Assembly: GCF_000325665.1 (NCBI RefSeq)
Contig: NC_019908.1
Span: 434,001-498,000, forward strand
Direction of reading: 5' to 3'
DNA: 64,000 nt
Source: Brachyspira pilosicoli P43/6/78
GTDB lineage: Bacteria > Spirochaetota > Brachyspiria > Brachyspirales > Brachyspiraceae
Part shown: piece by piece, positions 39,942-44,554 of the stretch
Numbering within the stretch: the first letter of the stretch is position 1
Layout of the letters: every line of letters begins with the position of its first letter
Position numbers and translations under genes: made by a program
Notes under the pieces: model-generated
The model's input: the letters and a program-made list of their open reading frames with translations, nothing else
The model's database searches: none
Told to the model about the DNA's origin: nothing

Positions 39942-41810
39942 ATGTTAAAAAATAAAAATATTTTTAGGTTAATTATATCTTTTATTTTATTAATAATAAC
40001 ATCTTTCTTTTTGTACTCAGAGGAATATGATACTAATTACTATAAAAATCTTTTTGATGAAATGTTTGCAAATGAAGATGAATTAAAAGAAATGGCAAAA
40101 GACCCTCAAGGATATATGGAAAATTTTTTAAAAATGGAAGCAGAAAAAGTATTAAAAGAAAAAATAGAACTTTATAAAAAATATAATGTTGTAGAAATAG
40201 ATAGTTTAGAATATGAATATCAAAATGCTGCAGAAGGTTATGGGAATTTAGAAGCTGTTAAGAAGTTTATAGAGAAATATGATATAAACGGAGTATATGA
40301 CGGCTATACTTTGCTTTATACTTATTCAAAATATAATTCCAAAATTGATATAGTGGAGTTCTTACTTAAAAATAATGCTGATGTTTATCAAAAATCTATT
40401 AATGGTAAAACGGCTCTTTACAGTGCTGTAGATGATTATGCTTATGATGTTGTTGAAATTATCTTAAAACATTATAAAAATGATGATGATATAAACGATG
40501 AGTTTTTGTTGGCGGTTAATCAAGAAAATGAACCTATGTTAAAAAGCCTATTGAAAAAGAAATTTTTATTTTTTGGAAATAAATTCAAAATGGATTTAAA
40601 CAAAGGGCTTGAAATAGCACTTGATAAAGGCAATGAAGATATAGCAGCTATATTAGTTTTAAACGGAGCTAAAACTGATAATTTTTTATATTATTTGAAA
40701 TTAGTATTTGGTAAATATTTAATTCTTATAGTTATTATGATTGCTTTATTTTCTTCTCTTATTTATGTATATAAAAGAAGATATATTCCTAGTATTTATG
40801 AAGAGAGCTCAATGTTTATAACTTTTAGAGATAAAGTAAATAATATGTATATTTATTGTTATGCTTATTATGGCGGAGTAGTATCTGTAATGCGTGGTTT
40901 TTTGGGAAATATATTTATAAATAATGATAAGCTAAAAGGATATTATAATATAGTCAGTAATTTTATGGATAATTATATTGTTATTTATGATTTTGATGAT
41001 AATAAAAAAAATGATAAAGAATATTTTAGCTGGTATGATTTTATTATAGAAAAAAATGAAAAAGCCATTATAAAATTTGATTGTTCTCTTTATGATTTTT
41101 TTAATAGTGATAAAACAGAAATTAACTATATTATAGAAATATCTGATTCTAAAATTATAAATGGAGTTTTTGAAGTAAATAGAAATCCTGCTATTAATGT
41201 AGAATATTCTAAATTAATATTTAGTAAGTCTGCAAAACATAATCGTTTTATAAATATTCTTTCTTATTTATTTGACTTATATCATTTCAATATAAAGAAT
41301 AATGATAAAATTAATTCATATATAAACGGAGATAATAAATCGTATTCTGATAAAAAAAAGGAATTGAAGATAAATGTTGAACAGATTTTAAAGAAACATG
41401 AGAGTATGCCATTTAATGATATTAAAATTAAATATTATGACAAACTAAAAGATTTTTATAATGCTGATAATATAGTGTATTTTGATGATAAAACAATATG
41501 CGTATACAAGAGATTTGCTAAGATAGAAGCTAATAATAATCTTACAGTAAATAATATATCACTCATCATTGATTTAGATAATGAAAAATTAATAAGTCCT
41601 TATTTGAAAGATTTTGTTAATAATGCTGATGAGATATTAAAAAGATATGATAGTAATTTTTATAAGAATATAGACAATTTGATTTTTCTTATAACAGAAG
41701 CAGGTATTATATTGATGAGAGAAAGAGGAGAGAAAAAATTATTTATTGCTTTAGATGATATAAAGGATAATATAAACAAGGAGCATTATTTATCTTATTT
41801 ATTTAATTAA
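39942..41810 (+). CDS. Tandem membrane family, member 1: ankyrin fusion
   Basis: The 622-residue protein has a signal peptide or TM (about 9-27), a helical region, ankyrin-like repeats (about 95-245: 'GNLEAVKKFIEKYDINGVYD', 'GYTLLYTYSKYN', 'VEFLLKNNADVYQKSINGKTAL') and a TM (about 253-278). A C-terminal domain of about 340 residues is shared with the next three genes. Shared marks are 'FRDKVNNMYIYCY', 'VYFDDKTICVYKR', 'NEKLISPYLKDFVNNADEIL' and the end 'HYLSYLF'. Positive charges after the TM ('YKRRY') place the C-terminal domain inside and the ankyrins outside (inference). The shared domain is not a family I recognise. Confidence 0.75.
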   Translation: MLKNKNIFRLIISFILLIITSFFLYSEEYDTNYYKNLFDEMFANEDELKEMAKDPQGYMENFLKMEAEKVLKEKIELYKKYNVVEIDSLEYEYQNAAEGYGNLEAVKKFIEKYDINGVYDGYTLLYTYSKYNSKIDIVEFLLKNNADVYQKSINGKTALYSAVDDYAYDVVEIILKHYKNDDDINDEFLLAVNQENEPMLKSLLKKKFLFFGNKFKMDLNKGLEIALDKGNEDIAAILVLNGAKTDNFLYYLKLVFGKYLILIVIMIALFSSLIYVYKRRYIPSIYEESSMFITFRDKVNNMYIYCYAYYGGVVSVMRGFLGNIFINNDKLKGYYNIVSNFMDNYIVIYDFDDNKKNDKEYFSWYDFIIEKNEKAIIKFDCSLYDFFNSDKTEINYIIEISDSKIINGVFEVNRNPAINVEYSKLIFSKSAKHNRFINILSYLFDLYHFNIKNNDKINSYINGDNKSYSDKKKELKINVEQILKKHESMPFNDIKIKYYDKLKDFYNADNIVYFDDKTICVYKRFAKIEANNNLTVNNISLIIDLDNEKLISPYLKDFVNNADEILKRYDSNFYKNIDNLIFLITEAGIILMRERGEKKLFIALDDIKDNINKEHYLSYLFN

Positions 41811-41818
41811 TTTTAAAG

Positions 41819-41854
41819 TGTTAAGCTTGTTGTGTGAGCATAACAAGCTTAACA
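41819..41854. other. Perfect 13-bp hairpin after member 1
   Basis: TGTTAAGCTTGTT (41819-41831) pairs perfectly with AACAAGCTTAACA (41842-41854) around a 10-base loop. It starts 9 bases after the stop codon and has no T tract, so it is not a standard terminator. Its right arm lies inside the first 72-base repeat unit. Confidence 0.6.
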
Positions 41855-42071
41855 GGTGAGTCGAAATGGCTTATAAGTTTAGTTGGCAACTTATATTGAT
41901 CTGAGTCGAGTATAACAATTAAAACAAGTTGTCCGAAACATCTGACAAGTTTAGTTAGCAGTTTACATTAAGCTTAGGCGGGCATAACAACTAAAACAAG
42001 TGAGCCGAAGCAGCTCGCAACTTTAGTTAGTAGTTTACATTAAGCTGAGGTGAGCATAACAACAATAGGAG
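41837..42071 (+). repeat. 72-bp imperfect tandem repeat, 3.3 units
   Basis: The units span 41837-41908, 41909-41980 and 41981-42052, each exactly 72 bases, plus a partial fourth (42053-42071). Each begins (A/G)G(C/T)ATAACAA and contains 'GTYGARxCCGAAxCA'-like and 'TTTAGTTxGxAxxTTA' blocks, ending in xGAGxYG. Units 2 and 3 are the most alike. The last partial unit runs into the AGGAG ribosome-binding site of the next gene, so the array forms its 5' leader. It is GC-richer than the genes around it. Confidence 0.8.
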
Positions 42072-42076
42072 ATATT

Positions 42077-43354
42077 ATGAAAAATTTAATAACTAAATTT
42101 ATGGATAAGGATATAATAATTTTGTTAGCAGCAGTGATTTTAGTAGCTCTTGTCATAATAATTATTAATATACCTAAAAATAATGCTAATAAAAATCCTG
42201 TAAGATTTTATAAAAATAATTTTTTTATGCTTAAAGATAAAGTAAACAATATTTATATTTATGTTTATGAGCATAGAACAAATGATAATCATAATGATTT
42301 ATACTTTGATAAAAATAATGTGTTTCCATATATAGGAAGAATATATATAAATAATGATAATGGTTTTATTATAAATGATGTTTACTTTTCAGCTGAAAGA
42401 ATAGGAATTGACAATTATTATGATAAAGATAATCCAATTTTAATTAATAAACACTCATCAGATGGTCGCAGATCTTCTAGATATGATGCTGAAACTTTTG
42501 CTGAAATAAAATTCAAGACAAAATTAGATGATACATCAAAATCAGAAATTGACTATGTCATTGAGTTTAAGCCTTATGACAGTATTGTTGACTATGTTGG
42601 AGATAATATTAAAAAGACTTTAAGAGAGCCTGTAAAGATAGAGGGAACTTTTGAAATTATAAGAGAAGATGAAGCAGAAATAATAAGACTGCATAATACA
42701 GATATAGTTGGTTTGTATAATGATAAAAGTACTTTATTCAGTTCTGAGAGAATATTTTCTCTAAATGTATTTAATTTTGATTATCTTTTTATAAATGGAA
42801 AAGAAAAAATAAATTCATCTATTAATGGAGTGAAAGAGTTCTCTGATGAGTTTTTAAAAGATAAAATAAATGAAAATAAAGATATAGTAGAATCCTATGT
42901 AAAAGAGTCTAAAAAAAGACATTGGAAATCATTAATGAATGAGAGTATATTAAACTATATTGATAATTATGCTGATTATTATAATGAACTTAAAGAGTTT
43001 AAAAGTTTTAATATATTATACTATGATGATAAAACAATATCTTTATATAAAAGAGTTTCAAAGTTAGAAGATTTGCATCTTGCTGAAATAGATAATATGT
43101 TTATGACATTTGAGTTAGGCAGTCAGAAATTAATAAGCCCTTATCTTAAAGACTTAGTAAATGACCCTGAAGCATTATTAAAAAAATATAATGTACCTAG
43201 AGATTTTTATTCAAATATAGATAGTTTAATTTTTGGCGTAACAGATTCATTTATTATAGTAATGAAAGAAAAAGGCTATGGAAAAATATTTATTGATAAT
43301 AAAAATATAAAAGAGTATATAAATAAAGAAGCATTATTTGGCTTATTTATTTGA
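42077..43354 (+). CDS. Tandem membrane family, member 2
   Basis: The 425-residue protein starts at ATG 42077, five bases after AGGAG (42067-42071); an in-frame GTG at 42050 lies inside the tandem repeat and is unlikely. It has an N-terminal TM ('IIILLAAVILVALVIIIINI') followed by Lys/Asn/Arg residues, so the large C-terminal domain should be cytoplasmic. That domain matches member 1: 'LKDKVNNIYIYVY', 'GRIYINNDNGF', 'KEKINSSINGVKEFSDEF', 'LYYDDKTISLYKR', 'SQKLISPYLKDLVNDPEALLKKY' and 'DSLIFGVTDSFIIVMKEKG'. No catalytic motif is evident. Confidence 0.72.
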   Translation: MKNLITKFMDKDIIILLAAVILVALVIIIINIPKNNANKNPVRFYKNNFFMLKDKVNNIYIYVYEHRTNDNHNDLYFDKNNVFPYIGRIYINNDNGFIINDVYFSAERIGIDNYYDKDNPILINKHSSDGRRSSRYDAETFAEIKFKTKLDDTSKSEIDYVIEFKPYDSIVDYVGDNIKKTLREPVKIEGTFEIIREDEAEIIRLHNTDIVGLYNDKSTLFSSERIFSLNVFNFDYLFINGKEKINSSINGVKEFSDEFLKDKINENKDIVESYVKESKKRHWKSLMNESILNYIDNYADYYNELKEFKSFNILYYDDKTISLYKRVSKLEDLHLAEIDNMFMTFELGSQKLISPYLKDLVNDPEALLKKYNVPRDFYSNIDSLIFGVTDSFIIVMKEKGYGKIFIDNKNIKEYINKEALFGLFI

Positions 43355-43458: not shown

Positions 43459-44554
43459 ATGAAAGAATTATTATATAGTATTTTATATAACGAATATTTT
43501 GTTTTAATTATTGTTACTGTTATTTTGATTATTGTTTTTAAACTTTTAATGAAAAATAAATACCGTCCTTATTTTGAAATAAAGGATACAACTTTTACAA
43601 TACTTAAAGATAAGATTAATAATATATATATTTACTGCAATAAATTTGAAAATATTGATGAGGGTATTCATTATTTGTATAGAGGGAAAATTTTTATAAA
43701 TAATGAAGATTTATTTGGTATTTATGAAATTAGAGGAAACAGCAGTAAAATAGAAGTTTTTGATTATTATACTGAAGAAGACTTTATAAAATCTAAAATA
43801 AAAAATATTGCAGAAATCAATTTAAAAACAAATTTAAATAATGCTAATATTTCAAAAGCTCAATATATTATGGATATTAATTCCAAAAAAATAGAAGGTG
43901 TTTTTGAATTAATAAATGAACCTAAAATAAACATAAAAAACTTTAATATAAACAGATTTGGATATTTAAAAAACTATGGAGAATTAAGCATAATTCTTAG
44001 TTATTTATTTAATTTTTATTATGCATTTATAGACAATAAAGAAAAAATAAATTTTGATATTAACGGAGAATCTAGTTTTTCAAAGGATTTTCAGTATAAA
44101 AAAGAAAATGAACTTTCAGATGAAATTAATTCTTTTTTGAAAAAAATCTCTGTTTATAAATTAAGAAAATATTTTATTAAAATTAAGGATTTATATGCTT
44201 TTAATATATTATACTTTGATGAAAAAACTATTTGTATTTACAAAAGACTTATAAAAATAGAAGATAGTAAAGAAATTATAATAAATAATATTTTCTCTTA
44301 TTTATGATTTGAATAATCAAAAATTAATTACACCTTATTTTAAAGACTTAGTAAATGATGCTGAAGAATTATTAAAAAAATATAATGTCAAAAGTGATTT
44401 TTATTCTAATATAGATAATTTAGTTTTTGGAGTAACTGATTCATTTATTATAATAATGAAAGAAAAAGGATACGAAAAAATATTTATTGATAATAAGAAT
44501 ATAAAAGACTATATAAAGAAAGATCATCATTTATATTATTTGTTTAATCAATAA
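43459..44554 (+). pseudogene. Tandem membrane family, member 3, frameshifted
   Basis: The first frame (282 codons) holds the TM ('YFVLIIVTVILIIVFKLLM'), 'LKDKINNIYIYCN' and 'LYFDEKTICIYKR'. It stops just after 'IIINNIFSYL'. The next frame supplies 'LNNQKLITPYFKDLVNDAEE' and the family's usual end 'YEKIFIDNKNIKDYI'. Alignment to members 1, 2 and 4 ('NNISLIIDLDNEKLISPY' in member 1) shows that removing one T from the T4 at 44291-44294 restores NNISLIYDLNNQKL. Joined length is about 364 residues, shorter than members 2 and 4 because its middle region is compact. No ribosome-binding site precedes the second part. Confidence 0.75.

Follow-up and report, generated by a model that had tools for sequence, protein, structure and literature searches.

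A tandem array of a dispersed, RNA-structured hairpin repeat of Brachyspira precedes a tandem-family gene in Brachyspira pilosicoli P43/6/78

Results

The window analysed here is a stretch of 64,000 nucleotides, positions 434001-498000 of the single-contig B. pilosicoli P43/6/78 genome (2,555,556 bases); coordinates are those of the window unless the genome is named. Two co-directional paralogues on the plus strand flank the feature under study. The upstream gene (39942-41810) encodes a 622-aa protein with ankyrin repeats, and the downstream gene (42077-43354) encodes a 425-aa protein of a multi-copy Brachyspira family for which no Pfam match was found. The two proteins are 35% identical over their common part. 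A third member of the tandem family (43459-44554) is seemingly split into two open reading frames, 43459-44307 and 44309-44554, which suggests a frameshift or a premature stop.

The gap between the two genes holds a tandem array with a period of 72 bases (TRF: 3.2 copies, score 244, 41836-42063), as the first-pass annotation of this DNA had described. Set in the phase of the conserved unit defined below, the array comprises three units on the plus strand. Unit 1 (41855-41918) is the most decayed, with 10 of the 17 canonical pairs of the conserved fold, and keeps the basal GA/GA mismatch (CM R1 35.5 bits, E 1.3e-6). Unit 2 (41927-41990) has 11 pairs and has lost the basal GA/GA (45.7 bits, E 1.8e-9), while unit 3 (41999-42062), the best preserved, has 14 pairs and its basal tandem GA at 42002-42003 and 42052-42053 (68.9 bits, E 5.3e-16). 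The GC content of the units is 0.36-0.42, where the published genome has 27.9% (PMC3587939), in line with the GC richness noted earlier.

At its 5' edge the array begins with the remnant of a truncated unit (41811-41854, plus strand, direct repeat D1), in which only the right box GTGAGCATAACAA (41834-41846) is recognisable; the position of this box is kept in relatives, as GTTAAGCTGTAGTCGGGAGTATAACAAC in L005 of genome G016 and GTTAAGCTAGCGGCGTCGAACATAACAAC in L033 of genome G005. At its 3' edge the array merges, as first described, into the ribosome-binding site (RBS) of the downstream gene: the junction CAATAGGAGATATT (42063-42076, plus strand) contains AGGAG (42067-42071) and is followed by the ATG at 42077. 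Many other loci share this junction, as CATARYAAYAAWAGGA.

The inverted repeat reported at the array start, as a perfect one of 13 bp, is also present. It is near-perfect (TGTTAAGCTTGTTGTG/CATAACAAGCTTAACA, 41819-41854), with 16-nt arms (41819-41834/41839-41854) that are 94% complementary and a 4-nt loop, and it overlaps the 5' edge of the array. It has no counterpart in the orthologous leaders of the two relatives compared, G016 and G005, where an ordinary remnant unit occupies its position. These observations are most simply explained by local correction of an imperfect palindrome on the remnant unit within this lineage, which probably produced the hairpin.

A search of the genome for the unit revealed a second array at genome positions 237940-238154 (G000:C1; L004:9941-10155). 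Its three units are near-identical to each other and near-perfect, making it a better model than the array in the window, and together the two arrays give this genome (G000) at least six good units. Relatives of the window unit were found by DNA search in 21 of 26 Brachyspira genomes. A covariance model built from 24 units matched 22 of the 26, with up to at least 70 strong matches per genome, these copy numbers being lower bounds. Four genomes (G001, G011, G012 and G019) gave no strong match; with several genomes having few copies or none, the element is not essential. Under stricter filters, the model matched none of 221 other spirochaete genomes sampled. When one genome from each of about 85,000 species was searched with the exact two-box pattern, 53 stretches matched, all labelled Brachyspira. 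Two IMG/VR viral contigs, L183 and L184, carry three and one exact matches to the unit pattern; these contigs are possibly Brachyspira prophages or host flanks.

The window array matched no Rfam family up to E=1, and seven loci gave no match at the gathering threshold, so the element was not assigned to a known RNA family. Literature searches, including term searches inside Brachyspira genome papers and with subscription literature mostly outside their coverage, returned no description of it. The Brachyspira hairpin repeat thus appears to be undescribed so far.

An intact unit is a 62-65-nt hairpin followed 3' by an A-rich tail, CATARYAAYAA, which often leads directly into the RBS. From the base upwards it consists of a 2-bp GY/RC base, a GA/GA tandem mismatch, a stem of 8-9 layers that include purine internal loops, an AU-rich 3' bulge of usually exactly 7 nt and a 10-bp inner hairpin with a 4-nt loop. 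The left arm reads A-GY-[GA]-GCC-[GAA]-GC up to the inner hairpin; the right arm resumes after the bulge with GC-[GWA]-GGC-[GA]-RC and ends in ATARYAA. A kink-turn was rejected because the purine loops are symmetric, and an integron attC-like site because, by sequence reasoning, the ends carry AACAA as direct rather than inverted repeats.

The pairing was examined in 24 units picked solely by their box sequences. In these, 96% of pairing cells are kept, changes on both sides occur in 10 of 17 pairs, and compensatory cells number 62 against 19 expected. None of 500 shuffles attains the covariation score of 0.469 (versus 0.196). Slid control structures are only 26-42% paired, and RNAalifold recovers the same fold unaided. 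The basal GA/AG tandem is invariant among the 24 units. A larger extraction was made by sequence alone, with no pairing condition and the GA bases left free. Here the second base pair, Y3/R57, is TA in 50 units, CG in 30, TG in 7 and unpaired in 6 (Fisher 9e-15, an indicative value, as the units are related to one another and not independent), and GA/GA is present in 80 of 91 units. Pairing is therefore maintained while the sequence is replaced. Conservation of unit and pairing in relatives, whose absence had been named in advance as part of what would refute the first reading, was found for the family.

The same shape is built from different sequences. We assembled a wider collection of units of 60-66 nt by the frame GYGA...GARCATARYAA with at least three pairs inside, so that the outer pairing is set by selection, while bulge, hairpin and spacing are not. 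The outer pair, the unpaired GA and the asymmetric 3' bulge occur together in 85 of these 91 units, and the bulge is exactly 0/7 nt in 62. The inner hairpin measures 24 nt in 56 of 82 units, and in 74 of 82 the GA tandem and the bulge are 8 or 9 layers apart. Frame sequences vary from GAGCCGAAGC to GAGAAAAAGCC, in which GAGAAAAATCC is compensated by GGATTTTTC, and further to GAGAACGAGCC, with two GA tandems, and GAGACAAGCC; unrelated frames share the geometry, with compensated AAAAAGCC/GGCTTTTT and AAAAATCC/GGATTTTT. Near-identical inner hairpins, CCGAGTAATGAAATTRCTCGG, recur in several different frames, which suggests that units exchange modules. Extra hairpin modules such as CGAACCAAGTAGGCACACTTCGTGTGGGCGAGC are inserted in the right box at L030:1428-1514, L122:356-438 and L245, giving nested units of 83-96 nt.

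Against this background, the array in the window is a partly decayed copy of a genus-wide hairpin repeat. Its plus-strand RNA folds at -70.2 kcal/mol compared with -55.4 in shuffles (z -3.3, reached by 0/200), and the minus strand folds more weakly (z -2.6). In the window units, folds alternative to the conserved one are more stable, and the leader of the gene at 42077, with its worn units, need not work today. The small stems pointed out earlier do exist, and GTGAGC/GCTCGC belongs to the minimum-energy fold of unit 3. They are unit-local alternatives, not the pairing conserved in relatives, and the hairpin at the array start is not common to the two relatives compared. That sequence changes between units partly keep pairing, another early remark, holds weakly inside the window, given the pair counts above; in the sister genome G016 the orthologous array retains 14 and 10 canonical pairs.

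We then analysed the genomic context of 77 sampled units, with genes taken from simple ORF calling. The 64 units found between co-directional genes are without exception in the sense orientation; the other 13 lie in gaps between convergent (8) or divergent (5) genes, so that whichever way they point they are sense to one neighbour. The sampled sites form 34 clusters by downstream sequence, and the neighbouring genes have no function in common. In 37 of the 77 cases a start codon follows the end of the unit after 13-21 nt, with the RBS in that interval, and the RBS is left unpaired in four model units. Others lie 50-400 nt upstream or near gene 3' ends, and units also occur ahead of apparent promoters, so that adjacency to the RBS is not universal.

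Orthologous sites differ in the presence, type and number of units. Ahead of the gene with a B12-dependent methionine synthase activation domain, the start codon follows a shared upstream motif at a distance of 42-53 nt in nine relatives, whereas in P43/6/78 the interval is 318 nt and includes the three near-perfect units at genome positions 237940-238154; other species carry arrays of different units in the same place. The short empty gap in relatives suggests that the two genes are co-transcribed, which would place the array inside an mRNA. At serA, six genomes (G000, G001, G011, G012, G013 and G016) have no array, and most others have arrays of varying type and number that run up to the same RBS. 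Several of the arrays in the serA leaders L241-L257 are preceded by an AT-rich hairpin with a T run, 3' of the upstream gene, which might be a terminator. Where empty and filled sites were compared by eye, AATAAT stood near both ends of one insertion, but neither a target-site duplication nor terminal inverted repeats turned up consistently.

Discussion

Together, our results identify a genus-wide repeat that keeps its shape, varies strongly in sequence and is placed only in sense, and that shows selection on RNA shape with unusual clarity. Counting against the reading favoured below, besides the genomes that lack the element, the units distant from an RBS and the alternative folds of the window units, is that perfect 10-bp hairpins can also stem from DNA-level palindrome dynamics. 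The strict sense orientation, together with a conserved GA/GA mismatch whose purine richness is confined to the sense strand, argues for action as RNA, and the orientation towards neighbouring genes with the frequent end at an RBS indicates that the repeat probably acts on mRNA. Action at the RNA level is well supported. The proposal that the array is a structured RNA leader finds support for the family, on the strength of its architecture, covariation, sense-only placement and the unpaired RBS of the model units; it does not apply as a leader peculiar to the gene at 42077, since the element is present in many dispersed copies.

We tentatively favour the reading that this modular, dispersed repeat, of which the window holds a worn copy, serves as an RNA-processing or stability signal. 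Units would be transcribed within mRNAs and act in cis. A double-strand-specific nuclease, for example RNase III, would cut at or near the 3' bulge, so that the upstream message would keep the hairpin at its 3' end and the downstream gene would be left with a short unstructured RBS leader, as happens at phage T7 R-sites. Slippage or unequal recombination may enlarge the arrays, and copying into further intergenic sites may spread the units. Many units resemble a phage T7 R-site in shape and position (an irregular hairpin of about 60 nt with an asymmetric loop, intergenic and upstream of an RBS), and they are presumably co-transcribed with their neighbours. Placement between cistrons, the irregular hairpin and the A-rich RBS leader recall T7 R1.1 and the Correia elements; this likeness, with an RNase III gene encoded in the same genome, is why we lean towards a processing or stability signal rather than a selfish repeat; RNase III-type processing of the Brachyspira units is suggested by analogy. 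A more far-reaching version, which we consider improbable, is that of a genus-specific structured RNA in which shape (GA tandems, 7-nt bulge, near-fixed helical distance) is selected and sequence is almost free. It would be a mobile, sense-only mRNA-processing cassette between stop codon and RBS that re-segments operon mRNAs and is read by a dedicated enzyme or protein.

A serious competitor is a selfish or neutral interspersed repeat of BOX or MITE type, whose hairpin would serve its own copying as DNA or RNA with incidental effects on genes; we regard this as a real possibility, if a somewhat doubtful one. The patchy presence, the many copies per genome, the tandem expansion and decayed copies, the empty and filled orthologous sites beside functionally unconnected genes, and the copies on two viral contigs all fit it. 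A DNA element between co-directional genes would, however, not be expected to be strictly sense, and neither a consistent target-site duplication or terminal inverted repeat nor a Y1 (REP-type) transposase was identified, the latter in any of the 26 Brachyspira genomes. The same search, for PF01797, led us to reject a REP/RAYT element, as control genomes do match. Rather unlikely, in our judgement, is that a Brachyspira RNA-binding protein reads the GA tandem and bulge to control translation or decay of many mRNAs. The near-constant distance between these two features, with free sequence, is what shape recognition would lead one to expect, and RBS adjacency is in keeping with it, but copy number differs widely among species and the downstream genes are diverse.

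If the AU-rich bulge were a -10 box, each unit would contain a transcription start and the array would be a tandem promoter. TATAAT is indeed matched at 5 or 6 positions in the bulge of 25 of 91 units (about 13 in shuffled sequence), and a two-box score of at least 9 is reached in 18 units (about 7 shuffled). Promoter-like sites are not enriched in the window, however (2 found, 2.7 expected), the inner stem, the expected place of a -35 box, changes freely in sequence with pairing kept, and one array lies where relatives have a tight operon gap. With a weak -10-like enrichment alone and no conserved -35, we rejected a sigma-70 promoter array as a class and hold a start in each unit to be very unlikely. 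Even less credible is a substrate for recombination that drives shuffling of the surrounding tandem paralogues. Arrays do recur across the orthologous cluster of paralogues in several species (L101, L104, L110, L123), which keeps such a role in play, but most sampled site clusters lie elsewhere, and recombination accounts for neither the pairing constraint nor the orientation.

The repeat lends itself to comparative work. Orthologous genes come with no unit, one unit or several, a natural series for testing the effect on operon mRNA, and the four genomes without a strong match allow species with and without the element to be compared. One covariance model suffices to annotate the element automatically. 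Some of the variable-number tandem repeat loci by which Brachyspira is typed may be due to the element.

Several known systems resemble the Brachyspira repeat in part. BOX elements of Streptococcus pneumoniae are modular, expandable, RNA-foldable intergenic repeats that are over-represented between convergent genes; their orientation merely mirrors the coding bias (60.8% leading strand), and they are argued to be selfish (PMC3049150). As described, they are set apart from the Brachyspira units, which are sense-only, mostly between co-directional genes and often end at an RBS. REP/BIME sequences with RAYT are likewise numerous short intergenic hairpins, but Brachyspira units run head to tail rather than alternating and occur in genomes lacking the Y1 transposase. 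Correia elements of Neisseria (CREE/NEMIS) are small dispersed repeats adjoining genes, and their hairpin in mRNA is bound or cut by RNase III (PMC2649163); they have inverted-repeat ends, a conserved core and end promoters, whereas Brachyspira units have variable stems, a fixed geometry and tandem arrangement. The RNase III signals of phage T7 are likewise irregular hairpins, about 60 nt long and with an asymmetric internal loop, that separate genes within a single transcript, as does R1.1, a 60-nt element between genes 1.0 and 1.1 (PMC6121014). As putative processing signals, the Brachyspira units carry tandem GA mismatches and a 7-nt one-sided bulge, where R1.1 has a 4/5 loop, and they further differ from the T7 R-sites in forming tandem arrays at scattered sites across a bacterial genus.
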